The notes under the pieces are model-generated. The model did no database searches and was not told where the DNA came from. It saw only the letters and a list, made by a program, of their open reading frames with translations. From positions 1 through 46,879 of the IMG/VR virus record IMGVR_UViG_3300031977_001000: a stretch of DNA of 46,879 nucleotides; one strand, 5' to 3'. The DNA comes from a virus. Shown here one piece after another: positions 1 to 43,541 of the stretch; the stretch's first letter is position 1; each line of letters begins with the position of its first letter. Position numbers and translations under genes: made by a program.

Positions 1-1490
1 TCACACTTAAATCCAAATGTCAAGTCTTTTAACATTCTTTTCCAAATGTGATTGCCGATCCATTGAGGTTTACATAATACATGATGGAAAATATAGTTAG
101 TAATATCTATCGGATTATTTAAACCTTTTGGGAATCCCTGTTTTGGTTGCTTGATGTCTGGTGGAGACAGCCACGTTTCCGCAGTATCTCTAAGTTCTAC
201 TTGATGGAATCGTTTAGCCCAAGCGTCAGCCGCTTTATCCCAAGTATAGTGGGACACTGCATTCTGCCTAATTCTTTCTCCTTGTTCAATAAAGAAGTTT
301 GGATTTTCTTTATGTGATTTTAGCATATCAAAAGCCAGAGAAACAAATGCTTCGTTGTCTGGTACGGCTCTATTGCATCCAGTTTCACATTCGCTATAGT
401 ACGACAGCGGCGTGATACCGTATCCGTCAATATTGTCAATCACAGATTGCATGGCGGAATAATAAGTAGAAATAACAGGAAGACCACAGTGCGCGGCTTC
501 TAGCTGGGGCATACCAAAACCTTCACTGTTGGCATATTGTACATATACATCAAACAAATTGTAGATTTTGGAAAGACTTACTTCGTCAATAGGATTATTG
601 ATTCCGACCACCTGATTTGTAAAACTTTTACATTTGTTACAAACCTGAACAGAATTCTGAAAAAAGTCAACAGAAATATTGTTGCAGTTTTTACATTTGT
701 AAGTCATCAGAACCCTACTAGCCAACCCATTTTCTTGGATTAGCTGTGGAAGCTCCCATCCCACATCTGGATAGTAAGTATGACAATAAAGATAAACATT
801 GTTTTGTTCTGATCTGTCTAGTATTTTTTTAAACGAAGCTAGAAGGTCGGGGTATAGCTTTCGCTTTTGATTTCTCATGACAGTGCCAAAAATAACACTA
901 TCTGGAGAAAGCCCCATTTCTTCTTTATGCTTACGCTTGTCTGCTACTGGTGCAAAGTTCGCGCTTGCCGCAGGGGACGCAACGTCTACAAATTCAATGT
1001 TGTCACATTGACGCATCATTGTGTCTCGACCAAATTCTGAATAAGCAAATACAGATTCAGCAGAATTATATGTATTAATCCACTGCGGATTTTGCGGTTC
1101 AGCGTCTACCGTTGGCATAATTGCCCAATGAAAAAAATCACGGTATGGCGAGCGCTGCTCAAACTCAATCATCCACCAGTCGCGAATATCCATCACGATA
1201 TCGGGCTGAAAATCAAGCGCGACATGATTAAACGACAAATCTCCAAATTGAGCTACTGGATTACCCTTATATAGCTGATAAGATGGATCATCCTGTAGGG
1301 GTTTATTAGGATAGCATTTCCAAGGAACATTCTTGGCTCTCTGGTCACTCCTGTCTGCATAACAAGATAGTTCAGCAACCTCGAATTCGTCAACTTGGTT
1401 TAATCTACTAAGCACCTCTTTTGTATAGACAGAATATCCTGTACTAAGCCAAGAAGCCTCAGAAACAAACAATATTTTCTTCTTTCTCAT
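1..1490 (-). CDS. GT4-like glycosyltransferase with inserted zinc ribbon (3' end outside window)
   Basis: I translated this frame by hand: it opens at an ATG at 1490 and stays open to the window edge, giving about 496 residues without a stop. The C-terminal Rossmann half carries SEGFGMPQLEA near residue 320, the GT4-type glutamate motif that binds the sugar-nucleotide. Just before it, residues 266-287 hold two CxxC pairs (CKNC and CNKC), a zinc ribbon inserted in the glycosyltransferase fold. The likely role is transfer of a sugar to a virion or host glycan. The ATG overlaps the stop of the upstream SSB-like gene (TAATG), so the two are probably co-translated. The C-terminus is missing only because the window ends. 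The family is clear; donor and acceptor are unknown. Confidence 0.85.
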   Translation of the reverse strand, partial: MRKKKILFVSEASWLSTGYSVYTKEVLSRLNQVDEFEVAELSCYADRSDQRAKNVPWKCYPNKPLQDDPSYQLYKGNPVAQFGDLSFNHVALDFQPDIVMDIRDWWMIEFEQRSPYRDFFHWAIMPTVDAEPQNPQWINTYNSAESVFAYSEFGRDTMMRQCDNIEFVDVASPAASANFAPVADKRKHKEEMGLSPDSVIFGTVMRNQKRKLYPDLLASFKKILDRSEQNNVYLYCHTYYPDVGWELPQLIQENGLASRVLMTYKCKNCNNISVDFFQNSVQVCNKCKSFTNQVVGINNPIDEVSLSKIYNLFDVYVQYANSEGFGMPQLEAAHCGLPVISTYYSAMQSVIDNIDGYGITPLSYYSECETGCNRAVPDNEAFVSLAFDMLKSHKENPNFFIEQGERIRQNAVSHYTWDKAADAWAKRFHQVELRDTAETWLSPPDIKQPKQGFPKGLNNPIDITNYIFHHVLCKPQWIGNHIWKRMLKDLTFGFKC

Positions 1491-1816
1491 TAGTTATCCG
1501 ATTCGGTTGAGTAGCGTTCTTTGTTAAAAATTTTAAAACTATTAACTCTGAAATAACAGAAGTCATTATCGTCTCTATTGCTTCTCGCCGTACACTCTAC
1601 AAGGATCAGGTCGTTAACTTGAAGTTTCTCTTTGATAGTGATTGCGGCTGTATGCCACGCTTCAAAGTTTAGATTTTCTGTTCTTCTGGTTTTTTGACCT
1701 GATTTATTTTTTCTATATTCTTCAACTTCGAGAACAAAATTAACTAGGTCAACATCATTAGATTTAGTAGAATAGACAGGCTCCTTGAGCTTGCCTAAAA
1801 AAGAGCAATTATTCAT
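1490..1816 (-). CDS. SSB-like OB-fold protein
   Basis: This is a small protein of about 108 residues resembling single-stranded DNA-binding proteins: MNNCSFLGKL start, a basic YRKNKSGQKTRR loop, then NLNFEAWH in the place of the usual SSB strand (compare FxxVxxW). An upstream in-frame TTG exists at 1831, but ATG 1816 has an AAGGA ribosome binding site at proper spacing and gives the normal SSB N-terminus, so I chose it. It lies directly after the C-terminal half of DNA polymerase III alpha, overlapping its end region, and is likely co-expressed with the replisome. A second, more canonical SSB is encoded at 39527-39865. The acidic C-terminal tail (STESDN) is short. Dedicated function beyond ssDNA binding is inference. 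Confidence 0.7.
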   Translation of the reverse strand: MNNCSFLGKLKEPVYSTKSNDVDLVNFVLEVEEYRKNKSGQKTRRTENLNFEAWHTAAITIKEKLQVNDLILVECTARSNRDDNDFCYFRVNSFKIFNKERYSTESDN

Positions 1817-1827
1817 AATAATCCTTT

Positions 1828-3369
1828 TCAAACTTGTATAATTTTATTTACAACAATCGAGTTTTTATCTCGCTTGGAAACCTCGCCATCTAAGAAGACG
1901 GTGTTTCTTTCTATCAATAAATCTTTATATTTCGCAAAAGCGTCGGGAAAAATTGTAACGGAATCTAGTTCACCGCTCGCATCTTCAACACACAAAAAAG
2001 CCATTTCTTGGCCGGGGTTTTTACCCTTCTTAGTTTTATAAGTACGTATAGAGTTGATCATTACAGAAAGATTTACTTTACCTCTTATAGTACCCAAGGA
2101 CACATCTTTGCACATATTTGTGGAAATATTTACAGAATCTGCCTTACTACAAGTCAAAGCGCACCCCATCAGCTTGATTTCATAGTCTGCAATAGAAACG
2201 GGGTCGTCATCTAGGCTATAAAATGGTGAAATGAGAGACTGTTTGATATCCTCTATCGCGGTTGCTCGCCGCGAGTTAATCTTTACCCAGTCAGGCAGAA
2301 GCTCGACACACTGTGACAAAGCTAGGGAGCTTTTGTAATTTTCAGCAATAGCATCTTTTTCTCTTGCAGAAAGATTATTCCAGCTATCGTATTCATAAAG
2401 CATTTTCTGGCGAGACTCTCTGTTGTTCTTGCCGTTAAAAGCGCCAACAGAAATCATGGCGATTGCTGCACGCTTATTGATTTTGCCCTTATGAATAATT
2501 TTAACAAGACAGTCTAGCCAAGTATAAGTAGTAATATCTTCTGTTTTCTTAATCTCTTCGATCTTGTCACACTCTTTAGTGCCTACATTCTTAATGTGAC
2601 GCATACCAAAATAAATCTTACCATTTTCATGGATAAAATTTGTATGCATGTGATTAAGTCTTGGTGGATAAGTATCTAGGCCAGCCATTTTAGCATCCAT
2701 AATAAGCTGCTTGAGTTCGATCTCAGGCTTTGGCTTCCTGTCGGAACGATTCATGTAGCTTACATAGAACTTTTCTAGTCTATGACACTTGCAATATGCG
2801 CTCCAATACGCATCAATAGCATACGAAACGGCGTGGCTCTTATTGAAAGCGTAGCGGTTAGACTTCTCGATCCATGAGAAAATCTCACCCGCTACCTCTT
2901 TCTTGATGATACCCTGCTTTTCTGCGCCATCCATGAAGACCTGTTTCATTTCTTCCATGAGTCCAGCCTTCTTTTTACCAATAGCCTTACGAAGTGAGTC
3001 TGCTTCTTTAAGATCAAACCCAGCTAGTTGCTGGGCGATCTTCATGCTCTGCTCTTGGTATACCAAAACCCCATAGGTTTCTTTTAAGATTGGCTCCAGA
3101 GAGTCATCTGGATAGTCAACAGGGTCCATCCCCTTCTTTCTATCTGCATAGTGCTGCGTCATAGACTTACCATCAGTATAAGCCTTTAAACAGCCGGGGC
3201 GAATCAGAGAAATAAGAGCCGCCAATTCGCTAATGCTTCTGGGTTTTACTTCTTTAGCCCAGTGTTTACCGAGGCTAGATTCAAGTTGAAAGACACCTTT
3301 TGTGCGCCCTTCGCAAATCAAATCCCAAACTTCTTCGTCTTCAAAATTATTAATGTCAAAATTAGACAT
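1828..3369 (-). CDS. dnaE: DNA polymerase III alpha subunit, C-terminal half (split gene)
   Basis: This 513-residue protein covers the part of bacterial DnaE after the palm: fingers (GVFQLESSLGK near the start, then LISLIRPG, YGVLVYQEQSMKIAQ, FNKSHAVSYA), the tandem helix-hairpin-helix region and a C-terminal OB fold (about residues 425-513). It stops after the OB fold and lacks the tau-binding tail of E. coli DnaE. The catalytic aspartates are not here; they are all in the partner gene at 4275-5867. ATG 3369 is preceded by GGGGAT and is preferred over an upstream in-frame start at 3399. The start overlaps the end of the exonuclease gene. The two halves must associate to make an enzyme; no intein sequence is visible at the break. 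Family assignment is firm. Confidence 0.93.
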   Translation of the reverse strand: MSNFDINNFEDEEVWDLICEGRTKGVFQLESSLGKHWAKEVKPRSISELAALISLIRPGCLKAYTDGKSMTQHYADRKKGMDPVDYPDDSLEPILKETYGVLVYQEQSMKIAQQLAGFDLKEADSLRKAIGKKKAGLMEEMKQVFMDGAEKQGIIKKEVAGEIFSWIEKSNRYAFNKSHAVSYAIDAYWSAYCKCHRLEKFYVSYMNRSDRKPKPEIELKQLIMDAKMAGLDTYPPRLNHMHTNFIHENGKIYFGMRHIKNVGTKECDKIEEIKKTEDITTYTWLDCLVKIIHKGKINKRAAIAMISVGAFNGKNNRESRQKMLYEYDSWNNLSAREKDAIAENYKSSLALSQCVELLPDWVKINSRRATAIEDIKQSLISPFYSLDDDPVSIADYEIKLMGCALTCSKADSVNISTNMCKDVSLGTIRGKVNLSVMINSIRTYKTKKGKNPGQEMAFLCVEDASGELDSVTIFPDAFAKYKDLLIERNTVFLDGEVSKRDKNSIVVNKIIQV

Positions 3370-4057
3370 AAATATCCCCGTTCGCAAATGTCTTTTCAAA
3401 TTTAACTTTATGCAACAATGTTCTTTGCAATTTCATGAACTTAATCATGATATTGGCGGTATCCTTAACGTCTTGCAACGCATCGTGAGCATTATCTTTA
3501 CTAGCTTGACTCATTCCAAAATAGTCGCGCAAGTAATCCATGCCATAACCCTTTACCTCTGTGTTATTTTCAAACCAGCAGTAGATATGCTGCATAACAT
3601 CTATGGTAAAAATTGGATTAAAAATGCCCTGTCTACCATTCTTAGCATGAGTAGGGCCATATTGTTGACACATGCGTTCAACGATTGGCATGTCAAAGCC
3701 ATTGATGTTGTATCCTGCGGCGATTGGCGCATAGTAGTTAGTCTTTTTGAAGTTGTATTTGTCGCAAAATTGCGCAAACTTCTTCCAGACGGTCTTTGGT
3801 AGCGGGGCCTTTGCTAGATCGTCTCTGTTCTTTCTTGTGATCCGCAGAGCCTCGTCTTCAAGCGGTGCAACACCCGCTTTGATTGCCTTATCGTCGTCGA
3901 TAATCGGGCGAATCTCGCTGTTAAATACGCCTCCCGGCTGTAGCTCTAGCTTCCTAGCATGAATAGCCACGGCAGCAATCTGCGTTGGCTGACATGTGTA
4001 GGGGTTAGCTCCACCGGTTTCAAAGTCAAACACAATAATGTCACGATAATTCGCCAT
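3362..4057 (-). CDS. DnaQ-like 3'-5' proofreading exonuclease (DEDDh)
   Basis: This 231-residue exonuclease has all five DEDDh residues: D11 and E13 in FDFETGG, D122 in NINGFD, and H191 and D196 in AHDALQD. It is expected to remove 3' mismatches during replication using two metal ions. Its position between the two halves of DNA polymerase III alpha, overlapping the C-terminal half by 8 bases and following the small gene at 4059 by one base, strongly suggests it acts as the epsilon-type subunit of that polymerase. The degenerate PHP domain of the N-terminal polymerase half fits with proofreading being supplied by this protein. Helical content at the C-terminus could provide the polymerase contact, but no clear clamp-binding motif was recognised. 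Confidence 0.9.
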   Translation of the reverse strand: MANYRDIIVFDFETGGANPYTCQPTQIAAVAIHARKLELQPGGVFNSEIRPIIDDDKAIKAGVAPLEDEALRITRKNRDDLAKAPLPKTVWKKFAQFCDKYNFKKTNYYAPIAAGYNINGFDMPIVERMCQQYGPTHAKNGRQGIFNPIFTIDVMQHIYCWFENNTEVKGYGMDYLRDYFGMSQASKDNAHDALQDVKDTANIMIKFMKLQRTLLHKVKFEKTFANGDIYV

Positions 4058-4058
4058 A

Positions 4059-4274
4059 TTACTTCCTTTTTTTCAGTTCCAAAAATTTATCAACTGCGTC
4101 GTCGATATTTTTAAATAAGTGATGTTCCCCGTATCGGTCAGACCACACTTGATATTCATTCGATCTTGCCAATCTTGGATAATAATTAGCTAGATTACAC
4201 ACCGTAATATCTTTATAGTCAATGCTGCAACCAGAAAAAATCACAGACATATACTCTTCTCTTGTAGCGTTCAT
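4059..4274 (-). CDS. small protein between split polymerase genes
   Basis: This 71-residue protein is not one I recognise. Its ATG follows the TAA of the polymerase N-terminal half with no gap, and its own stop is one base from the exonuclease start, so it is translated as part of the polymerase operon. The N-terminal half contains two cysteines (C16, C26) and many aromatics; the C-terminus is acidic and then basic (FLELKKRK). The compact mixed composition suits a small folded domain. By position it could bridge the two polymerase pieces or the exonuclease, but that is inference from gene order only. Confidence 0.65.
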   Translation of the reverse strand: MNATREEYMSVIFSGCSIDYKDITVCNLANYYPRLARSNEYQVWSDRYGEHHLFKNIDDAVDKFLELKKRK

Positions 4275-5867
4275 TTAATCCTCACAGATTTCCATAATTT
4301 TACTTAACAAGTCAATTCCAAGAACATCAAACTTGACATGACCCATAGCCTCTAGGTCATTCATTTCAAGCGCGGCAATCATCTTGCCATTCTTGTCTTT
4401 AACCATTGGACAAACTTCTGCGAGAGGATGTTTTGAAATAATCACACCAGCAGCATGTTTGCCTTGGGATTTATTAGTTCCTTCAATTTTAATCGCCTGC
4501 TCAAAATAGTGAGAAAGCGGTCCATCAAGTTTTCCTTCTTCATCATAGTAACACCAACTTTTTAGTGCCTCGGATTCATTTTCTAAAGCCCATCTAATGA
4601 TAGACTTATCGTCCATTAATTCTAGCTGGTCAGAAATCTTAGCTTCGTCTGGAATACTGTCGGTAATAGCGTTCATCTCAGAGAATGATACAGCATCATT
4701 GATTCTCAACACCTCTTTGATGGCGGCTCGCCCCTGTAGTTTTCCAAACGTTACCATCTGAGAGACCTTATCAATTCCATACTTTTCCTTGATGTAATCA
4801 ATCACTTCGTCTCTATGTTCAGCCGGAACGTCCATATCAACGTCAGGCAAAGAAACATGATCCTCGGTGTTTCGTCCCTCATTGTAAAATCTCTCAAACA
4901 GTAAGTCAAATTCAATTGGGTCAACTTCTGTGATTCCAACCAAATAAGATATTAAACAGCCAGCAGCAGAGCCACGACCCGGACCAGCGATCCAGCCACG
5001 ATCTTTAACATGATTGACAATATCTTGGACGATCAAAAAATAACCACTGAGATTGGCCTTAAAGATAACCTCAAGCTCTTTCTTGACTCTCTCTAGATAA
5101 ATATCTCTTTGAACTGGGTCTTTTACTTTTCCGGCTGGCGCTAGCTTAGACTTCCAGCCATGACGACACAACTCTTTTAAATATTCATCATTATCAAAAC
5201 CTTCTGGAACATCAAACTCTGGAAGCATCGGCTTGCCAGTAATTTCATATTCTTCGCAGGCAGCAATAGCATCAAACATTTCCTCGTCGTCGCTCACATC
5301 GCGTGGCTGTTTCAGACAATAGTCTTCACTTGTAAAGAAATGCTTGTTCTCAAAATCTTCACCCTTTTGCAGCTTTGCCGTAACCTTTGGAATGTTTGTT
5401 TTCATGCCAGAACATAGAATGATTCTATGCAAATCTGCCTCGTCTTGAGTGCAATAATACACAGCATCATCTACATAATTGTAATGAAAGTAGTTCTTGC
5501 CCCACATCTTCTTGTAAGCTGCGTTATCTTCTGATGTGATGAAGAGAATATTTCCATTTTCGGCTATTCTTTTAAGGGTGTCAATGTTTTGTTCTTCAGA
5601 CGAGTAGTTGATTAGGTCAAGCCACCCATCTTTATTTTTAGCAATAAGTAAGAACTGCTCAGTATCTAATCCCAAAATGGGCTTTATATCGTTTTTCTTG
5701 CAGGCTTGGTGAAAGTTCACAGCGCCAGAAAGAGTGTTGATATCGGCAAGAACGCACGCCTCATAACCATATGAAGCGCACAGTTTTGCCAGTCTGTCTG
5801 GATTAGAAAAACCTTTAAGAAGACTGAAGTGAGTCTTGCAGTTTATTGGTGTATTCTTGTTTTTCAT
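4275..5867 (-). CDS. dnaE: DNA polymerase III alpha subunit, N-terminal half (split gene)
   Basis: This 530-residue protein contains the N-terminal PHP domain, thumb and palm of DnaE. The palm motifs GPGRGSAAGCLISYLVG (about 296-311) and PDVDMD carry the first two catalytic aspartates (D342, D344); the third is D514 in KFDVLG, only 17 residues before the stop. The protein therefore ends just after the complete catalytic triad, and the fingers are encoded separately at 1828-3369. The PHP domain is degenerate: the expected HxH near residue 12 reads CKTH. ATG 5867 is preferred over a TTG three bases upstream. The gene starts inside the end of the upstream glycosyltransferase gene. The ending is a natural in-frame TAA followed directly by the next ATG, not an obvious frameshift. 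Confidence 0.93.
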   Translation of the reverse strand: MKNKNTPINCKTHFSLLKGFSNPDRLAKLCASYGYEACVLADINTLSGAVNFHQACKKNDIKPILGLDTEQFLLIAKNKDGWLDLINYSSEEQNIDTLKRIAENGNILFITSEDNAAYKKMWGKNYFHYNYVDDAVYYCTQDEADLHRIILCSGMKTNIPKVTAKLQKGEDFENKHFFTSEDYCLKQPRDVSDDEEMFDAIAACEEYEITGKPMLPEFDVPEGFDNDEYLKELCRHGWKSKLAPAGKVKDPVQRDIYLERVKKELEVIFKANLSGYFLIVQDIVNHVKDRGWIAGPGRGSAAGCLISYLVGITEVDPIEFDLLFERFYNEGRNTEDHVSLPDVDMDVPAEHRDEVIDYIKEKYGIDKVSQMVTFGKLQGRAAIKEVLRINDAVSFSEMNAITDSIPDEAKISDQLELMDDKSIIRWALENESEALKSWCYYDEEGKLDGPLSHYFEQAIKIEGTNKSQGKHAAGVIISKHPLAEVCPMVKDKNGKMIAALEMNDLEAMGHVKFDVLGIDLLSKIMEICED

Positions 5868-6696
5868 CAATTATTTTCTTCAAAATTTGCGACAAGTTAT
5901 CGGGTTCCAATATCGTATTATTATAGTCAGACAGGTTCTTCGTTAGCACCGAAATATCACTATTATTTACTAATTTTAGACATTCTTCCAGATGGTTATC
6001 TAGGAACTGCCACTTTGTAAAGAACAACGGGGCGTTTTCGTAATACCAAAACCTTGGAAGCCTTTCAACCATTGGAAAAGCGCCAAGTTTAATAGCTTCA
6101 AAGAATCTAAAAGACTCATCACTAAAAGCTCCAGTTGGACACAGGCAGATTTTAGAATTATTCAATAGCTCAACATATTCTTGATGATCTAATCCTGTTC
6201 CAAAAGCAGAAGTATATTTTACATAATGCTTGTATTTATCTCCTGTTTTCTCTATCATGTCATCTAGGCATTTCTGAAATTTATCTCTCGTGCCATATTG
6301 CGAGATTTGACCAACAAAACAGAAGTCATATTCTCTTTCGTCTATAGGTTTAATCTCTTCTATCTTTTGTTCAATATTATTAATAAAAGTTCCCACGGGA
6401 AGCGGAAAGAATTTATGATTTACAACAGGATATCCCCAGTTATCTAACATGGAGTAGTTGTGAAAAATCAAAAACACGCTTTCTTCATCCACGTATCTTG
6501 GATACTGATGCGTTTCATTAGATAGCGAGAACAAGATATGCTTCTTGCCGTCTTTTGGAAATGTATAATCTTGAAGATCATATTTAACCACAACGCGAAA
6601 GCTGTCATCAAGTAGTTTAGCAAGACTTTCGGCAGTGTCAAGTAGAATCTTGTTACCTAAGTCAAAATCTTTTTTTATATCAATTAATTGTGCCAT
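5815..6696 (-). CDS. exostosin-like glycosyltransferase
   Basis: This 293-residue protein shows the C-terminal pattern of exostosin/GT47-like and related glycosyltransferases: NSKICLCPTG followed by SFRFFEAIKLGAFPMV, where the conserved glutamate sits in a loop that contacts the sugar-nucleotide. The N-terminal half is a less conserved Rossmann-like region with FCFVGQ. No signal peptide or membrane segment is visible, so it probably acts in the host cytoplasm. It is wedged between a PD-(D/E)XK nuclease and the polymerase, overlapping the polymerase N-half by 53 bases, so it is expressed with replication genes despite its glycan role. It could modify phage DNA bases or virion glycans; neither is shown by the sequence. 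Confidence 0.7.
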   Translation of the reverse strand: MAQLIDIKKDFDLGNKILLDTAESLAKLLDDSFRVVVKYDLQDYTFPKDGKKHILFSLSNETHQYPRYVDEESVFLIFHNYSMLDNWGYPVVNHKFFPLPVGTFINNIEQKIEEIKPIDEREYDFCFVGQISQYGTRDKFQKCLDDMIEKTGDKYKHYVKYTSAFGTGLDHQEYVELLNNSKICLCPTGAFSDESFRFFEAIKLGAFPMVERLPRFWYYENAPLFFTKWQFLDNHLEECLKLVNNSDISVLTKNLSDYNNTILEPDNLSQILKKIIDEKQEYTNKLQDSLQSS

Positions 6697-7718
6697 CAGC
6701 CCGGTGCCTCATAATATCCAATGTCAAATCCTTCTCTAGTACAGTCCGCAACAGTTTTGTCATAGCCCTCTTTTCTTAGCTTGTCTTCAACGTGCTGACA
6801 CATGCTTTTGTTTTCGCCCGGCCAATCTGTTTTGCAGAAATGGCATAGCTTCTGACATCTGAAGTCACGTCTAGTAGGAGAAACAAGCCTCGGATTAGTG
6901 TTCTTCTGTATCTGTTGATATCTTTTTCTAAGCATATCTAAAAACTTCTCTTGATCAGACTTATCAAAGCACATACTAAATGGGCCGCCATCACGAATAA
7001 AGAAAATACTCATGATAGCCTGCTCGTAATCTGGATACAATCTAGATATAGCATAGTTATACAATAACAGCTGTGGATCTTCAAGCAATTTCTCGTAAGT
7101 TTTTTCTTCGCCTGTTGCCCAGTTCTTGCGCTGTCCGGTTTTCCAGTCGATTACCTCAATGACACCATCATCAATTTGTGTCACTAAGTCGATTGTACCT
7201 TTAATTGCAAGCTGACCATTTGCTTTAGTTCCATCTGGCATTTCGTATTCAAACTTAGCCCAGTCTTCTTCTATCGGCAAATCAAAATTAGGCTCTGCAT
7301 CTACGACATCTCTGTTGCGAGGGTCGAACTGGCCGTCATTATATGTTAGCGCTTTTTCTGTAAGGTTCTTACAAAACTTTAGATCGGCAGGATAATACTT
7401 GTGAATACAGTCTTTTTGATAATGAGCGTAGCTTTGGTCTAAAATATCGTCTACAAACTTCTTAGTGTATAGCTTTCTTTTTGTAAATTCTATTTCACCA
7501 AGCGCATCATCTGTGATCGTCAAGGTTTTTTCTTCTGGATTATCTTGAAGACATTTTTTGCAAGCAGCAAGAACCTCCATGACCTTGTGAACCATCGTTC
7601 CTAACTGTGCCTTTTTGCCAGACGGCGATCTGTGTCCTAAGACATAAGTAATAAAATACTGCATTTGACAGTAATCATAATTACCATAGCTAGACGACCT
7701 AATATAGGTGACTATCAT
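6696..7718 (-). CDS. PD-(D/E)XK nuclease, Cas4/AddB-like with Fe-S cysteines
   Basis: This 340-residue protein is a RecB/Cas4/AddB-family nuclease. The conserved histidine is in GTMVHKVME (about residue 44); the catalytic core is GTIDLVTQ followed by VIEVIDWKTG, giving the D...DxK arrangement; a Q/Y motif (DPQLLLYNYAI) follows. Cysteine 17 near the N-terminus and a C-terminal group (CQKLCHFC and a later C) fit the four-cysteine iron-sulfur cluster that staples these domains. It probably processes DNA ends during recombination or host DNA degradation. The ATG at 7718 has AAGGAG upstream; its TGA overlaps the next ATG. Confidence 0.85.
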   Translation of the reverse strand: MIVTYIRSSSYGNYDYCQMQYFITYVLGHRSPSGKKAQLGTMVHKVMEVLAACKKCLQDNPEEKTLTITDDALGEIEFTKRKLYTKKFVDDILDQSYAHYQKDCIHKYYPADLKFCKNLTEKALTYNDGQFDPRNRDVVDAEPNFDLPIEEDWAKFEYEMPDGTKANGQLAIKGTIDLVTQIDDGVIEVIDWKTGQRKNWATGEEKTYEKLLEDPQLLLYNYAISRLYPDYEQAIMSIFFIRDGGPFSMCFDKSDQEKFLDMLRKRYQQIQKNTNPRLVSPTRRDFRCQKLCHFCKTDWPGENKSMCQHVEDKLRKEGYDKTVADCTREGFDIGYYEAPG

Positions 7719-7719
7719 A

Positions 7720-8529
7720 CTAGCTCCTTATAGTGTGAATTCCTGTTGACGGCTCTTCAACGTTGGTAAATTCTACTTCATCACCAAGCCATCCCCATTT
7801 TTCTAGTAAATTAATAATCTCTTGATTTGTTTCATTAATGGTCATGTCTTGATTTTCAATGACGGCATCAAAACCTTCGTATCCATCTAGCTCTGTCTCG
7901 CTGGCATGGTCGTCGGAAAACGGCTTTCGATTGAGCCTGATGATTTTTCCGCCAGCGGCTTTGATTAGCTCTACTTCATTAGTAAATCTAACATCATCCA
8001 CAACCGCAAGCAGAGAAGATTCGATTTCAATATCTTTCAAGAGTCTTTCTGCCCAGATATCATTATACACCCTTCGACAGACTTCTGTGCCAAAGAACTG
8101 AAGAAACTCTCTTGCGGTCATGTTGCCGCTTTTGTTTCTTCTTTTTCTTTCTGCGATAGACATAGGCATATCTTGCCATCTGATATGTGTTTTTGTATTC
8201 TTTTGTTCTTCAGTGCCGAACACCTGCTCTTCTTTGATCCCAAAGAGTTCAACAGCCATAGCCTTTAGTGGGTTGGCGAGAGAATATTTCTTGATATAAG
8301 GCCACATATTGTACCCAGCCCAGTCAGCAAATTGAGCATCTGTTCTGCTAATATCAAGCAGCCCATAAGAATCATTACTGTTTTCTGTTTGTATGAGCAA
8401 ATCACCGCCCTCAGTGATTGCAAAATTGTTAATGACTCTAAAAGCTCTTAGCTGATAGCCATGTACAAAGTTTGCGCATGTGCTTTTGCCAGATTGTTTA
8501 GTGCCAGAAAATGCTAGTATTTTAGTCAT
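7720..8529 (-). CDS. deoxynucleoside monophosphate kinase (T4 gp1-like)
   Basis: This 269-residue kinase has a P-loop GTKQSGKS at residues 9-16 and the family's central region (NPLKAMAVELFG, then AREFLQFFGTEVCR and VVDDVRFTNE). It resembles the phage dNMP kinase family represented by T4 gene 1, which phosphorylates dNMPs to dNDPs. It fits with the dCMP deaminase, dUTPase and ribonucleotide reductase elsewhere in the window as a dNTP-supply set. It overlaps the upstream primase gene by four bases. The region between P-loop and core is longer than a minimal nucleotide kinase, as is usual for this family. Confidence 0.85.
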   Translation of the reverse strand: MTKILAFSGTKQSGKSTCANFVHGYQLRAFRVINNFAITEGGDLLIQTENSNDSYGLLDISRTDAQFADWAGYNMWPYIKKYSLANPLKAMAVELFGIKEEQVFGTEEQKNTKTHIRWQDMPMSIAERKRRNKSGNMTAREFLQFFGTEVCRRVYNDIWAERLLKDIEIESSLLAVVDDVRFTNEVELIKAAGGKIIRLNRKPFSDDHASETELDGYEGFDAVIENQDMTINETNQEIINLLEKWGWLGDEVEFTNVEEPSTGIHTIRS

Positions 8530-9545
8530 AAGATAGCCTTTAATTGTTCTTGCAATTGTTCAATAGATAGATCACCAACATCTTTAGCGTCAAGAGTTGG
8601 CCGTAAATAATTAAATCTTCTTCCGCATTTCTTAATGATTTGCTGCGCGGCTTTGTTGCCAGCGTCATCATAGTCTGTTAGTATGATTACATTCATAACT
8701 CCTATTTCTTCAAGCAATATTAATTGTTCATCAGTCAAGGACGCGCCAAAAATACTAACCGAATTACTGTATCCGGCCTCGTGCATCCTCCAAACATCGC
8801 CTTGACCCTCTAGAAGAAATACGGTTCTATTCCTTATTATATGGTCTTTTGCAATATTTAGCCCATAAAGATGTTCTTTTTTAAAGCCTTTGCTATGCAG
8901 CCACTTTGGTTGCATGTTATCGTATATCGACCTACCAACACATCCTACAAAACAATCATTTACATCATAGATAGGCACAACCGCACGATTATACATGGGT
9001 CTATTTTTATCTAGACATGTGCCAACATCAAATAAGTCAAGCACCTCTGGCGTATAGCCGCGATCAATATAATACTTACACGGTATTTCTATCTTTGATC
9101 TAACTTCTTGTCTTGATAGGGTTGGAGTATTAACGACAGAATGTTTCAGGAACACATCAAGCAGCTTAACCTCTTTTACGGGATTAAGGTCTTTTTCTTC
9201 TACATGCTCCGCCTTAGCTATAGACTCACAGAACTTGTATGTTTCTGCAAGAGTGGCCTCTGTGCCTTTCTTTGCGGTCAGTGCGCCTCTGATAAATCCG
9301 AATATATTTCTAGCATATTCATCATCGCATCCCGCAGTCCAGCACTTCCAGTTTCCGACAACATCATCGCCGTCTAAAAACAGAGAGCATCCCTCTGGAT
9401 TGTCGCCGCCATGAACCGGACAAGGAAAAGAGTACCTGTTAGGATACTCTACATATTCAATATCAAGCCTGTCTAATACTTCAGGAATAAAATCACGTAG
9501 CGCATCACACGCTGCTGAGATCTGATTCTGCGTCAAAGTCTTCAT
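8526..9545 (-). CDS. DnaG-type primase (CHC2 zinc finger plus TOPRIM)
   Basis: This 339-residue primase has an N-terminal zinc finger with C42, H45, C68 and C73 (CPVH then CWTAGC), a linker, and a TOPRIM domain with E246 in LLEGQGD and DYDDAG at 291-296. It would synthesise RNA primers at the fork with the helicase encoded immediately upstream. It is shorter than bacterial DnaG and lacks an obvious C-terminal helicase-binding domain. Its start lies about 40 bases inside the end of the helicase gene, a long overlap that suggests coupled translation. Confidence 0.9.
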   Translation of the reverse strand: MKTLTQNQISAACDALRDFIPEVLDRLDIEYVEYPNRYSFPCPVHGGDNPEGCSLFLDGDDVVGNWKCWTAGCDDEYARNIFGFIRGALTAKKGTEATLAETYKFCESIAKAEHVEEKDLNPVKEVKLLDVFLKHSVVNTPTLSRQEVRSKIEIPCKYYIDRGYTPEVLDLFDVGTCLDKNRPMYNRAVVPIYDVNDCFVGCVGRSIYDNMQPKWLHSKGFKKEHLYGLNIAKDHIIRNRTVFLLEGQGDVWRMHEAGYSNSVSIFGASLTDEQLILLEEIGVMNVIILTDYDDAGNKAAQQIIKKCGRRFNYLRPTLDAKDVGDLSIEQLQEQLKAIL

Positions 9546-10968
9546 TTATTTCAAATCCTTCACTTCTTGATTTGGCATTGTTATGGATTTCATTCCTAGT
9601 CATGCCTTCTTCTAAACGTCCGATACTGCCAAACATTTTCATGGAGATATAATCACCATCATCTAATCCCTCACCATGTCTGGCAACAATGGGGACCAAT
9701 TTTCTATTGCCGTTTTTAGGATTGTCTTCGGCCTTCTCTTCATCTGATTTTAACTTAAAGATTGTAAAACTCGTACAAAGCCAGATAAGTCTATCAGAAC
9801 CAGACACCGCATCAGTGCTTTCTTTTGTGATACCATCTCTGTTCAACTGCACAAAGCTCAAACATGGAACATCATACTTAACCATAAAGTTATGCAGCTT
9901 AGTAATCTGGAATCCAAGAACCTGATACTCCTGCATAGACGCACTAATACCATCTGAACTCATAAGTTTTAGATAGTCATAAATAATCACACAGTCATTA
10001 GTTCTACCATTCTCATCAAAGCCGACATGCTGATAAATCCACTTCCGCATAATAGAAAGTATATTATCAAATGACTGACCTGCAATACTAATATAATGAT
10101 ATGGAATATTTTTTAGCTTTTCAGAAGCAGCGCGCACCTTTTCTTTGTCTATTTCATTATCTGAGAATTTACCTGTTGCAATCTTGTTGATTTCTACACC
10201 ACTAATACTGGCTAAAATTCTGTTTAGGTGGTCATCTTTTGACATCTCTGTATCCAACACAAGAACAGGAACGCCCTGCGTGGAAATATTGAGCGCCACG
10301 GCATCGCAGAACATAGACTTACCAACTTTAGGTCTGGCGGCAACTAGATCAACGCATTTTCTACGGAGACCACCACCGATAGCAGCATCATATCTTGCAA
10401 ACCCTGTGGGTATTCCAACGAAGTCTGACACATTTTCTGTAAGAAAGTCCAAGTATTCATCAATATCGTCTCCAATAAATTCTGTTTTGTTACTTGATGT
10501 TTGATATATTGCAGATGTGGCATCTAAGATAGGAGATTCTACCATAGAAATAAGGTCTACAATATCTTCTTCGCCGGTCATAGACTCAACACTTTTCTGA
10601 CATCCGTTAAGTGTTTTCTTTAGGTCTCGCGCCAGCTTTAGCTTGGCTATTTTTGCAGCATGAATCTGTGAGTTTTCTAGATTCACTGGAAAATTAAACA
10701 GCGACCTAATAAAGCCCATCTCTTCTTTGTTATTTAGCGCGTCACCAATGCCCAGACTATTCGCGGAAGATAGAATAGATGTCAATTCTACCTTTGCATT
10801 GTCTGATATTGTTTTATGAATACAGCTAAACAACACCTGATTCATCTCGTCAGTAAAGTGATCGCTGTCTACAAAGTCAATATCTAAGTAGCAGTCGAGT
10901 CCATACTGACACAGCGCTGCAAGCACAGCTCTTTCAGATGCTAAATCTTGTAGCTTGTTCTTTTTCAT
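9505..10968 (-). CDS. DnaB-like replicative helicase
   Basis: This 487-residue helicase has an N-terminal helical domain (about 1-110), a linker, and a RecA-like ATPase with Walker A ARPKVGKS at 211-218, a Walker B segment (CVIIYDYLKLM) and a later SFVQLNRDG motif typical of the DnaB C-terminal domain. It would unwind DNA ahead of the polymerase as a hexamer. I chose ATG 10968, which overlaps the TAA of the upstream gene as TAATG, over an in-frame start 27 bases upstream. The acidic C-terminal tail (EINEDFDAESDLSSV) is likely a disordered partner-binding segment. Confidence 0.92.
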   Translation of the reverse strand: MKKNKLQDLASERAVLAALCQYGLDCYLDIDFVDSDHFTDEMNQVLFSCIHKTISDNAKVELTSILSSANSLGIGDALNNKEEMGFIRSLFNFPVNLENSQIHAAKIAKLKLARDLKKTLNGCQKSVESMTGEEDIVDLISMVESPILDATSAIYQTSSNKTEFIGDDIDEYLDFLTENVSDFVGIPTGFARYDAAIGGGLRRKCVDLVAARPKVGKSMFCDAVALNISTQGVPVLVLDTEMSKDDHLNRILASISGVEINKIATGKFSDNEIDKEKVRAASEKLKNIPYHYISIAGQSFDNILSIMRKWIYQHVGFDENGRTNDCVIIYDYLKLMSSDGISASMQEYQVLGFQITKLHNFMVKYDVPCLSFVQLNRDGITKESTDAVSGSDRLIWLCTSFTIFKLKSDEEKAEDNPKNGNRKLVPIVARHGEGLDDGDYISMKMFGSIGRLEEGMTRNEIHNNAKSRSEGFEINEDFDAESDLSSV

Positions 10969-11378
10969 TAGCGACCACCAATACACCTGTCGCAAACATA
11001 CCAGTCCCTAGCGTGAGTTGGATGAACCTTTACAGTGTTTTGACATTTGGTGCATTTCTGTTCAACCATCTTAGTCGGCGGTCGTCTTCTTTCTGTTGGC
11101 TTAACGTCCGGCGTAGTAAATTCTGCACCTTTGGCTTCTGTTCCATCGTCAGTAAAACTATTAAATCTTTTACTTTCTGTTACTGGCGCTTTGGCTTTTA
11201 CCTGATCTTTATTCTTAGTAACACTAAAATCCAAGTCCACATCACGAGACGACTCTTGCTTGGGTGTAGTTACGACTACAGGCTCTTCTCTTTCTTGCGG
11301 CTCCATACTATCACTTAGGCTCTGAATAAGAGCCATCTTCTGTTCCGCAGTCAACGATTCAATAAATTTATCTAGCAT
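10968..11378 (-). CDS. zinc-ribbon protein upstream of helicase
   Basis: This 136-residue protein has a helical N-terminus (MLDKFIESLTAEQKMAL), a long low-complexity charged middle, and a C-terminal zinc ribbon with CTKC at about 109-112 and CDRC near the end. I do not recognise a named family. Its stop overlaps the helicase start, so the two are translated together. A flexible protein with one helix bundle and one zinc ribbon beside a DnaB-like helicase could be a helicase-loading or replisome adaptor; this is inference from position. Confidence 0.7.
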   Translation of the reverse strand: MLDKFIESLTAEQKMALIQSLSDSMEPQEREEPVVVTTPKQESSRDVDLDFSVTKNKDQVKAKAPVTESKRFNSFTDDGTEAKGAEFTTPDVKPTERRRPPTKMVEQKCTKCQNTVKVHPTHARDWYVCDRCIGGR

Positions 11379-11385
11379 AATAACC

Positions 11386-11847
11386 TCATCTAGTTTTCGA
11401 CAAATTACTTAGCGTGTCCGCCATTCTCAATACTTTACTTGCTTTACCATCTATTACAGACAGTCTAGCTTCTGCATGTTTTTTAATTCTTAATATATCA
11501 GAAGCGAGTGGGTTTTCCTTAATTGCAGAATAATACTTCTGCTCCCACTTAGTGTACCCATTACCATAATCATCCAAGGACTTAGATATTATATACCAAA
11601 TACTTGAATCTGCCCAGTCTAAAGCTATTTTTTCTTTGGATTTTACTGACTCAAGATAATCAGCATAAGCATATAGTTCATAAGCATAAGCCAAACATTC
11701 TTTTGCAGATAAATGGCTAATCTCTTGCGAGCGCATATTTAGAATTGCTTCAATATCTTCCTTCTGGTCAATTTTGGGTAAGCCCTTGCAGGATATCCAG
11801 TCATCAATCGTCTGAAGAAACTCTTCTAATTTTTGTTCTCCACTCAT
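11386..11847 (-). CDS. helical hypothetical protein in recombination block
   Basis: This protein of about 153 residues is unrecognised and predicted by eye to be almost entirely helical, rich in Ala, Leu, Lys and Glu with aromatic patches (YAYELYAYADYLESV). ATG 11847 has a GAGGA site upstream and is favoured over ATG 11859, which has none. Its first part overlaps the end of the nuclease gene. It sits between the RecA/nuclease pair and the helicase block, so a role in recombination or replication is plausible but not shown. Confidence 0.65.
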   Translation of the reverse strand: MSGEQKLEEFLQTIDDWISCKGLPKIDQKEDIEAILNMRSQEISHLSAKECLAYAYELYAYADYLESVKSKEKIALDWADSSIWYIISKSLDDYGNGYTKWEQKYYSAIKENPLASDILRIKKHAEARLSVIDGKASKVLRMADTLSNLSKTR

Positions 11848-12235
11848 CAATGTCCTCATTATAATTTAGTTCTATCAATTCTATTTCGTTTAAGTCGCAC
11901 CATTCTCTTTTATCTGAGTCTCTGGCTTTTGCTTTATAAAAGTCTAACTTGCTCTTAAAAAAGAAACTGTTAAACTTATAATGTTGCTCGCCATGAACTT
12001 CTACAATGATGCGCCTAGCTGGAAGAAACATGTCTGCCCGTAAAGACTTGCCACCAAACTGGTCTTTGCTTCCCGGAAGCGTTACTTCCTCTAGTATCGT
12101 ATCATAAGGATAGAACTCTTCAAGGAGTTTTCGTGCTTTTTCATGAAGTTTTGACCTAGCACCTTTCTTGGAGGCGGCAGAAAGAGGTGTCCATATATAA
12201 CCCCTCGCATCAAGGCCGACTATTTCTATTTTCAT
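11804..12235 (-). CDS. Vsr/DUF559-like PD-(D/E)XK endonuclease
   Basis: This 143-residue protein resembles very-short-patch-repair/DUF559-type nucleases: LRADMFLP gives the conserved aspartate (D68), followed by IIVEVHGEQHY where E-V-H occupies the ExK position, then a FKSKLDFYKAKARDSDKRE stretch and NEIELIELNYNED, the usual terminal strand. Replacement of the catalytic lysine by histidine is common to several Vsr-like relatives. It probably nicks or cleaves DNA during repair or recombination. The ATG overlaps the stop of recA (ATGA), linking it to homologous recombination. Exact substrate unknown. Confidence 0.65.
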   Translation of the reverse strand: MKIEIVGLDARGYIWTPLSAASKKGARSKLHEKARKLLEEFYPYDTILEEVTLPGSKDQFGGKSLRADMFLPARRIIVEVHGEQHYKFNSFFFKSKLDFYKAKARDSDKREWCDLNEIELIELNYNEDIDEWRTKIRRVSSDD

Positions 12236-41037: not shown

Positions 41038-42270
41038 TTAAATTAAATCTGTGATAATCTTGCCACCATTAGCAATTTTCATGGGACGACCATTCTTTGC
41101 AGTATAACTCTTGTTTATATCTATGTCAAGAGCATGACAAATAGTGGTCATCAAATCTTCTGATGAATAGATTAACCCGTCCTTCACTTCTGTTCCGTCT
41201 GAATTTGTAGAGCCAATGGCGCGTCCACCCTGAATCAAGCCACCAGAGACAAACGCAGACCAGACTTTCGCCCAATGGTCGCGTCCAGCATTTTGGTTGA
41301 TTCTTGGAGTCCTACCAAATTCTCCCATCATTACTATAGCAACATTATCCCACATGTCAAGACGTTTTAAATCTAACATCAATGTAGATATAACACTGTC
41401 TAGTTCTGGAAGTTTCGTAGATAATGTCTCATGTGTATTTTGATGTAAGTCCCAGCCACCAAAACCAATCTCAACAAATGGAACACCGGTCTGGACGAGC
41501 CGCCTCGCCATCAAAGCACTTCGCCCCAGTCCAGTATCGCCATAAGCATCAATAACCTCTTGCGGCTCATCTGTGGGCTTTAGAGCTTTCATTTGTGGGC
41601 TTGTATTGAGCTTAAATGTTTGCTGTAACATTTCCATGTGGCTCTTAGCCATGTCGCTATTTGTGGATTTAACAAAACCACTTTCAATAGCAGCAAGAGC
41701 CTGCATCCTCTCAAGGTCTACATTGTCGCCAAGGTTTCTGACCTGACCGTTAGAACTAACAATAAAAGGATTCCAAGCAGACCCCAAGAATCCGCCCCCA
41801 ACACTTCCTGTGCTAATAGCAAAGAATGGAGGAATTTCTAAATAATCTCTGTCTTGTGATAATTCATAGGAAATAACAGACCCCATTGATGGATGTGCCA
41901 TATTGGGATTTGGTTTAAATCCTGTGTGCATATAATATGTGCCGCGCATGTGGTCTGCCTCTCTTGTCGCCATAGTTCTGACAATAGAGAAGTCGTTGCC
42001 CTGCTTGGCGAGTTCTGGCATTAGTTCGTTGATTTGGAAATCGCCAGCGGTAGATAAAGCCCTTGAAGGACCGCCAGTGGCAGAACCCTGCTTTATGTCC
42101 CACATATCAATAGTTGGTGGTCCGCCACCAAGCCACACAAGTATTGCGGCTTTTTCATTCTTACGCAACTCCGAAGAATTGTTAATAATGTTTTGACCAA
42201 ATGATAAAGAGGTTGCTGACAGTGATGCCAGACCGCCAACATGTTCTAAGAAATGCCTTCTGTTAATCAT
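41038..42270 (-). CDS. DUF1501 protein with Tat signal
   Basis: This 410-residue alkaline-phosphatase-superfamily protein of the DUF1501 family has an N-terminal twin-arginine signal (NRRHFLEHVGGLASLSA), then LVWLGGGPPTIDMWD, the family's opening motif, GGWDLHQNT, MMGEFGRTPRINQNAGRDHW, all expected metal/phosphate-site motifs. It is exported folded by the host Tat system. DUF1501 proteins are sulfatase- or phosphatase-like and abundant in Planctomycetes. Two copies in tandem in a phage is unusual. Its actual substrate is unknown. Confidence 0.9.
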   Translation of the reverse strand: MINRRHFLEHVGGLASLSATSLSFGQNIINNSSELRKNEKAAILVWLGGGPPTIDMWDIKQGSATGGPSRALSTAGDFQINELMPELAKQGNDFSIVRTMATREADHMRGTYYMHTGFKPNPNMAHPSMGSVISYELSQDRDYLEIPPFFAISTGSVGGGFLGSAWNPFIVSSNGQVRNLGDNVDLERMQALAAIESGFVKSTNSDMAKSHMEMLQQTFKLNTSPQMKALKPTDEPQEVIDAYGDTGLGRSALMARRLVQTGVPFVEIGFGGWDLHQNTHETLSTKLPELDSVISTLMLDLKRLDMWDNVAIVMMGEFGRTPRINQNAGRDHWAKVWSAFVSGGLIQGGRAIGSTNSDGTEVKDGLIYSSEDLMTTICHALDIDINKSYTAKNGRPMKIANGGKIITDLI

Positions 42271-43541
42271 GCAATAATGTCCTGAATTACTTCACCAAAA
42301 TCTACAATTTCAATAGGTCTATCGCCCGGAGCCATAAGTTCTTTATCGGCATTGATTCCCATTTGGTGATAAATCGTAGTTGCCCAGTGTGGGATTGTCA
42401 CTGGATTATCTTCTGGTTCGGTTCCAGTGGCATCGGTAGTACCGTAAGTCATTCCGCCCTTGATTCCGCCACCGGCAAGAATAGAACTGAAAACTTTAGG
42501 CCAATGGTCACGACCAGCATCCTTGTTCACCTTGGGGGTTCTGCCAAACTCAGAAATCACACAAACAAGCGTAGAGTCTAGTAAACCCCGTTCTGTTAAA
42601 TCTTCTATAAGCGCAGCGAACGCTTGGTCAAACGGTGGGACTTGAGAGTTAATGCCATTGAAAATATCTTGGTGCATATCCCAGCCACCATAAGTCATCG
42701 ACACAAACCTAGCGCCCGCTTCAACTAATCTTCTGGACATTAACATTCTTGCGCCAGCAGTATTTCGCCCATATCTATCGCGAACTTCTGGCTTTTCTTT
42801 TTCAATATCAAATGCGTCCTGCGCACTTTGACTGCCAACGAGGTCGTATGCTTTCTCATAAAAAGCATTCATAGCTTTTACAGCATCAGAGTTTACGCGC
42901 TCAGTCATGTTCTTGTTTACAATGTCTAACAGATTTTTTCTTCTTGTAAAGTGATCGTCTGTAATATTAATAGACAAATCTCTAACTTTAAAGTTGTCTG
43001 ACGCTGGATCAGACCCCAAAGAGAATGGAGCGTAAGCATTACTTAGGTATCCAGTTCCGGCAAATTCATTGGGTTTTTCTGGAACGCAGACGTAGGCAGG
43101 AAGATTATTGCGGGAACCAAACTCATGAGAAACAACGCTACCAATAGAAGGATACTGAAGCGCAGGACTCGGTTTATAACCAGTAAACACGCTATTAGTG
43201 CCTCTTTCATGAGCCGCCTCTCCATGTGTCATGCTTCTGATAATCGTTAGTTTATCCGCAACCTTAGCGGTTTTTGGAAATCTCTCGTTGATTTGAATAC
43301 CAGCAACATTTGTATCAATAGCTTTCATAGAGCCACGATATTCTAATGGCGCGACCGTCTTGGGGTCGAATGATTCCTGAGCAGATATACCTCCGGGGAG
43401 GTAGATAAATATCGTACTCTTGGCCTGTCCTTCGATGCTTTCGTAAAACTTTTGTTCGCCCATAGCAAATTGCGTGCCAGCAGCGGCAAAAAGACTTGTC
43501 TGCAAGAAAGCTCTACGGCCAATATGGATATGATTAAACAT
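42267..43541 (-). CDS. DUF1501 protein with Tat signal (paralogue)
   Basis: This 424-residue DUF1501 protein has a Tat signal GRRAFLQTSLFAAAGTQFA, then IYLPGGISAQESFDPKT, GGWDMHQD and ISEFGRTPKVNKDAGRDHW. It resembles the downstream gene along its length but is clearly diverged, so duplication or separate acquisition is old. Both keep the key motifs. The TAA/ATG arrangement (4-base overlap) links the two. It probably acts in the periplasm or envelope on a sulfate or phosphate ester. Confidence 0.9.
   Translation of the reverse strand: MFNHIHIGRRAFLQTSLFAAAGTQFAMGEQKFYESIEGQAKSTIFIYLPGGISAQESFDPKTVAPLEYRGSMKAIDTNVAGIQINERFPKTAKVADKLTIIRSMTHGEAAHERGTNSVFTGYKPSPALQYPSIGSVVSHEFGSRNNLPAYVCVPEKPNEFAGTGYLSNAYAPFSLGSDPASDNFKVRDLSINITDDHFTRRKNLLDIVNKNMTERVNSDAVKAMNAFYEKAYDLVGSQSAQDAFDIEKEKPEVRDRYGRNTAGARMLMSRRLVEAGARFVSMTYGGWDMHQDIFNGINSQVPPFDQAFAALIEDLTERGLLDSTLVCVISEFGRTPKVNKDAGRDHWPKVFSSILAGGGIKGGMTYGTTDATGTEPEDNPVTIPHWATTIYHQMGINADKELMAPGDRPIEIVDFGEVIQDIIA

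Follow-up and report, generated by a model that had tools for sequence, protein, structure and literature searches.

A phage DNA polymerase III alpha encoded in two pieces, with a proofreader-like exonuclease gene between them, across a large uncultured clade

In the E. coli DNA polymerase III (Pol III) core, a DnaE-type alpha, there a single chain, is accompanied by a separate proofreader, epsilon, of DEDDh type. Cyanobacterial DnaE, by contrast, is split between two genes, found far apart and broken near an FNKSH motif, with intein trans-splicing joining the resulting halves. Considered here is another arrangement, as seen on the minus strand of a virus record of 46,879 bases (IMG/VR record IMGVR_UViG_3300031977_001000, the whole of which is referred to as ‘the window’). 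In the window, alpha is encoded by two genes, an N-half and a C-half, and the gene for a DEDDh exonuclease lies between. As with E. coli, a DnaE-type alpha thus is paired with a separate DEDDh enzyme, but with alpha consisting of two chains, and as with cyanobacteria DnaE is found in two genes, but genes which are adjacent, which are cut at another site, and which have no intein at the break. I read this locus, with a probability of roughly 85%, as a core replicase, i.e., two alpha polypeptides which assemble non-covalently plus a proofreader, ancestral to a large clade of uncultured tailed phages.

Two-protein phage Pol III alphas have been described previously. With group 2.2 (Rak2-like) jumbo phages the two proteins have been proposed to reconstitute the enzyme (Iyer et al. 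2021, PMC7824862). Those genes, however, are distant from each other, specify a minimal protein, and are found alongside PolB (PMC7824862), whereas the window's clade has adjacent genes and a complete domain set, the break falling past the third catalytic aspartate, with an exonuclease encoded between and PolB absent from 18 records. The Atu_ph07 N-unit, identified as gp316 (PMC6102473; genes counted from the clamp loader), is 177 amino acids (aa) long and matches DnaE profiles only in the GPGRGS region. PHROG 11127, the profile corresponding to that unit, covers only residues 254-329 of the window's N-half, stopping before the DxD motif. Rossellomorea phage phiT1 (gp20/gp19/gp18; PV767480) has its DnaE cut at the same palm-fingers linker as seen here, with one 49-aa open reading frame (ORF) between, but has no exonuclease between the halves and in the tree described below is found with intact phage DnaE such as that of MTATph1 (support 89). 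Tenacibaculum phage Larrie (ON950054) carries a pair of neighbouring Pol III alpha genes, close to one for a DnaQ-like protein, but with the break before the DxD motif, the exonuclease upstream, and a position in another lineage of that tree. As phiT1 and Larrie are found elsewhere in the tree, their breaks probably are independent of that of the window's clade. The ‘fractured genes’ of Dassa et al. (2009), which as described in papers citing that work combine split inteins with an endonuclease, resemble an arrangement seen inside the C-half or the N-half of some relatives, but not at the clade's ancestral N/C break. Earlier cases of a split Pol III alpha in phages exist, and this clade is set apart from them by where its break lies, by which genes it has, or by lineage. 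The N-half, exonuclease, C-half order itself is without description in the literature searched, a coverage lying outside of most subscription journals and preprints. As a separate observation, Bacillus phage vB_BpsS-140 (L181:3031-6638) has DnaE in two overlapping ORFs (363 and 852 aa), unannotated as such, which is a possible split or a frameshift.

The module consists of four genes, transcribed in the order in which they are given here and followed by an SSB gene:

4275..5867, minus strand: DnaE N-half, 530 aa (degenerate PHP, palm, thumb), an ORF from ATG; Pfam PHP (PF02811) 3e-13 and DNA_pol3_alpha (PF07733) 2e-71
4059..4274, minus strand: small protein of 71 aa, an ORF; no Pfam family
3362..4057, minus strand: DEDDh 3'-5' exonuclease, 231 aa, a DnaQ/epsilon-like proofreader; Pfam RNase_T (PF00929) 3.7e-14
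1828..3369, minus strand: DnaE C-half, 513 aa (fingers, helix-hairpin-helix, OB fold); Pfam finger (PF17657) 1e-46 and HHH_6 (PF14579)

The N-half is of family C, DnaE type, and is alignable to E. coli alpha as far as residue ~563. The original prediction, as made from the window's letters, placed catalytic aspartates D342, D344 and D514 all in this upstream gene, and they are found at exactly those positions. The N-half does stop soon after the third, though at 16 residues rather than the 17 predicted. Modeled alone (AlphaFold2, AF2; predicted local distance difference test, pLDDT, 90), the C-half is a confident, complete fingers-helix-hairpin-helix-OB unit, matching E. coli alpha 583-1073 and, likewise over the stretch that opens with the fingers and closes with the OB fold, the alphas of Thermus and Mycobacterium. 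The model supports an OB fold as the end of the C-half, at model residues ~415-513. Pfam matches and model agree with the prediction that these domains would be found in a second gene some 900 bases on, the distance from N-half stop to C-half start being ~905 bases. The 71-aa gene and the exonuclease gene fill that gap, with 0 to 8 bases at each junction, as predicted for the window, though in relatives the small gene is not always part of the module. The C-half ATG lies inside the 3' end of the exonuclease gene, a Shine-Dalgarno-like site precedes each module ORF, and the N-half has an alternative in-frame TTG at 5870.

That the break is at a domain boundary likewise was predicted, and in every locus inspected it is the linker leading from the last palm helix into the fingers which is interrupted. 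N-halves end a few residues past that helix, with motif KFD[IV]LG..LL.KIM.I, and C-halves start just ahead of a TKG.FQLES motif. Versus intact DnaE relatives only the linker is cut, with essentially zero residues missing. Outside of the window's subclade, most C-halves open with a conserved, short F.CGC.F extension (e.g., L066:8739-8800), absent within the subclade, which possibly is a small metal-binding element.

Six scans of viral contigs, seeded by different split members and taking the best 80 loci of each, a design by which a fused sister lineage could be missed, bear on how widespread the arrangement is. Scans with the window's halves and exonuclease yielded at least 81 distinct loci, all with the N-half, exonuclease, C-half order and most with the 71-aa gene. 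Wider scans, using alignments and a deep member as query, yielded at least 224 distinct loci from many metagenomes, and this gene order, which the original prediction had proposed looking for in related phages, is found in all of them. Instead of the single polypeptide expected of a DnaE-type polymerase, alpha is in two ORFs in 224 of 224 clade loci; none is fused, and the only fused matches are four distant, intact DnaE (L071, L072, L073, L108) rather than any intact dnaE from near-identical genomes. Clade members diverge to about 36% identity. In a maximum-likelihood tree of the joined proteins, the 33 split representatives form one clade (Shimodaira-Hasegawa-like approximate likelihood-ratio test, SH-aLRT, 100; stem length 1.09), and as this was a quick search including several long outgroup branches, only the split clade itself is relied on.

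Ratios of nonsynonymous to synonymous substitution (dN/dS), as determined relative to near relatives, are 0.03-0.07 for the N-half, 0.03-0.06 for the C-half and about 0.01 for the exonuclease, values which are rough, many of the comparisons having a dS that approaches saturation. Purifying selection on both halves is strong, and their distance matrices correlate with r = 0.93 (171 loci), as is expected given their co-inheritance. D342, D344 and D514 are conserved across distinct loci except in four N-halves having different letters at the DxD, three of which (L319, L326, L341) have an insert of ~1.1 kb at that position, after which the DxD resumes. The split arrangement, in short, is well supported as ancient, of single origin, and stable, the last as had been proposed.

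The window's source is a single-virus fragment of a metagenomic assembly, and an assembly error, a sequencing frameshift or a decaying pseudogene accordingly might be suspected. Contigs which are 100% identical were recovered, however, from two independent metagenomes (L001, L002) and this, together with 224 loci of the same order, excludes chance and also misassembly, which the prediction had raised against itself. Given as well the low dN/dS and the invariant active sites, I consider an artefact to be refuted, its residual probability being negligible.

A second alternative is that the halves become joined following their synthesis by protein trans-splicing, i.e., via a split intein as with cyanobacterial DnaE or ‘fractured genes’. 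Inteins do occur within this polymerase. A split intein is found at FNK|SHA of the C-half in L012:10045-12871, L105:4376-7053 and L175:3560-6440, a site which I take to be three residues off that of the cyanobacterial DnaE split. Int-N there ends in a stop, an endonuclease-like ORF is next (NUMOD3/DUF559 in the L175 copy), and then comes Int-C with SHAVSYA or similar, alpha in these three loci being spread over three genes. Split inteins are found also at the active-site GPGRG|S of the N-half (L339:2038-3453, L350:2050-3459), and the C-half fingers hold contiguous inteins at RPG|C (L065:8911-9903, HNH-like; L102:5126-5965 and L105:3653-4477, both mini-inteins). At the N/C break, however, no intein was seen on either side among the N-half ends and C-half starts inspected, from about 190 loci; N-halves end past the palm helix, and C-halves open with the fingers or the CGC extension. 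As split inteins are easily recognised where they do occur in this polymerase, their absence from the break is informative, and trans-splicing of the two halves is highly improbable. The prediction that no intein would be visible, unlike with cyanobacteria, consequently stands for the break but not for the two genes as a whole, both of which in relatives carry split or contiguous inteins elsewhere.

Nor is it any more credible that the intervening genes reside within a self-splicing intron or are otherwise skipped, giving rise to a joined mRNA or protein. Endonuclease-like ORFs are inserted in relatives at the N/C break and at other places, which counts in favor of such an explanation. Free-standing ORFs forming a 17-member cluster, HNH-like by eye, are found in gaps between the N-half, 71-aa, exonuclease and C-half genes (loci: L008, L009, L010, L012, L015, L018, L053, L130, L139, L141), though the one member tested against Pfam yielded only a helix-turn-helix. 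The ~1.1 kb inserts noted above lie immediately before the DxD (L326:3391-4535, L319:3394-4538, L341:3391-4535), with a LAGLIDADG-like ORF, by eye, in L326. Yet no Rfam intron matches the window at positions 1-12000 even at E <= 1, or matches relatives with inserts at gathering score, and every ORF comes with a start and a ribosome-binding site of its own, with both gap length and inserted genes differing among loci. As for how the ancestral break came about, the odds seem even that it would have arisen via a mobile-endonuclease or intein event and then become fixed once the halves could assemble without splicing.

The exonuclease matches PHROG 192, ‘DNA polymerase exonuclease subunit’ (1.4e-23), with no match in a sequence search of the PDB. 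Its five active-site residues (D11, E13, D122, H191, D196) are all invariant across distinct loci, and none of 18 records encodes a second RNase_T protein, the one present being found close to the palm domain. Its gene also evolves more slowly than any other in the module (98-99% aa identity to L003-L006 despite dS >1.4). Most relatives outside of the window's subclade retain the metal-binding residues of the PHP domain (HxH, DH). Within the subclade the motif is N-x-K-x-H and the H of DH is lost, with the N-half ~100 aa shorter. As the PHP metal residues are lost and the DEDDh site is invariant, proofreading in the subclade would rest on the separate exonuclease. Judging from these residues, that is, any PHP-based proofreading probably was lost in the subclade, the DEDDh enzyme carrying out that function. 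In five relatives the PHP motif has an in-frame stop (TAA or TGA) followed by GTG, at the same spot in each (LHVHS-stop-V..H[YF]SLLDG; L421:6010, L238:6010, L256:6010, L351:3253, L355:3236), which might reflect reinitiation or bypass, or be the scar of an insertion.

As a DnaQ/epsilon-like enzyme, the exonuclease would be predicted to bind alpha, at its PHP domain, and to proofread, and a conserved C-terminal motif, VKFEK.FANG..YV, perhaps is a partner-binding tail. A stronger version of this idea has the exonuclease as an obligatory architectural subunit which bridges the palm and fingers halves, replacing their covalent linker and making polymerisation dependent on the exonuclease. That version fits with the enzyme's slow evolution and its constant position between the halves, but is doubtful overall.

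All of the window's subclade has the 71-aa gene, as do two deep lineages (L065, L352), but nine larger records outside of the subclade lack it. The product, of which 60 members were aligned, is under purifying selection (dN/dS about 0.11-0.16) and is confidently predicted by AF2 to form a small alpha/beta fold (pLDDT 88). No Pfam family matches, PHROG matches are weak and scattered, and Foldseek matches are at E >= 0.009. A YkuJ-like identity was considered, but at VIA Z 6.6 the match is too weak for assigning function. Possibly the replicase has this protein as a small accessory subunit.

Three further replication genes of the window are relevant to what this polymerase does:

1490..1816, minus strand: single-stranded DNA-binding protein (SSB); Pfam SSB 2.9e-8, with ATG at 1816 and AAGGA upstream
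8526..9545, minus strand: Toprim DNA primase; Pfam Toprim_4 2e-12
9505..10995, minus strand: DnaB-like replicative helicase; Pfam DnaB_C 7e-23

The SSB gene likely is in the same transcription unit as the split-polymerase module, and genes for a PD-(D/E)XK nuclease and a deoxynucleoside monophosphate (dNMP) kinase are found in the same region as the primase and helicase genes. It may be asked from this whether the split polymerase could be solely an accessory enzyme, i.e., a repair or lagging-strand helper, with the host polymerase carrying out the bulk of replication. No clamp or clamp loader was recognised, and the split Pol III alpha of the group 2.2 jumbo phages accompanies a PolB (PMC7824862). 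The present polymerase has, however, a full domain set (PHP, palm, fingers, helix-hairpin-helix, OB) rather than a minimal one, and its genes are near those for helicase, primase and SSB. In addition, no PolA or PolB (PF00136) and one Pol III alpha palm domain each were found in 18 records of up to 230 kb, the completeness of which is not established. An accessory role is unlikely given these observations, if less so than either form of joining considered above.

Several points nonetheless weigh against interpretation of the locus as a core replicase. Complex formation and polymerase activity are inferred. Records are fragments or of unestablished completeness, so that a further polymerase may have escaped notice. 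Family searches for beta clamp and DnaX/delta' gave no match, leaving processivity unexplained. The phage, finally, could still borrow host Pol III.

Cultured relatives and hosts were sought as well. No cultured phage in the INPHARED set has the N-half, exonuclease, C-half arrangement, with best polymerase matches of about 30-36%. Searches by terminase, helicase, exonuclease and ribonucleotide reductase found just 24-50% matches, to unrelated phages (terminase, about 25%). In genomes searched for a host, chromosomal DnaE were only 28-37% identical and no close prophage was found. A search for a Gp23-type capsid gave no match, with the control likewise silent. Two tandem DUF1501 proteins are encoded by the window at 41038-42270 and 42267-43541 (E 4e-88 and 3e-114), a family which I take to be one of Planctomycetota and some other bacteria, and which presumably could provide a clue to the host.

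Under the core-replicase interpretation, Pol III alpha would be permanently made as two polypeptides in this lineage of uncultured tailed phages. The N-half would supply the entire palm active site along with what remains of PHP, and the C-half the fingers, helix-hairpin-helix and OB fold, with the two held together non-covalently where palm and fingers meet. Proofreading would come from the DEDDh exonuclease, the gene for which lies between theirs and which would work together with the halves, and adjacent, translationally coupled genes may serve to balance the amounts of the subunits. That the halves bind each other and polymerise as a two-subunit enzyme is the best available reading of these sequences.

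The arrangement suggests that a polymerase used for replication can function in two pieces on a permanent basis. If the halves assemble, then this would be a replicative Pol III alpha which naturally consists of two chains, kept over a deep viral clade in which no fused member has been seen, and a cellular-type replicase would tolerate a permanent palm/fingers break. That phiT1 has a break in the same linker, apparently of independent origin, implies that this linker is permissive. A proofreader would be genetically tied to both halves, and a ready-made split polymerase would be available for mechanistic or engineering work. With inteins and endonuclease-bearing inserts found in the same genes, this clade would be a good system as well for considering the origin and persistence of essential genes that are split.

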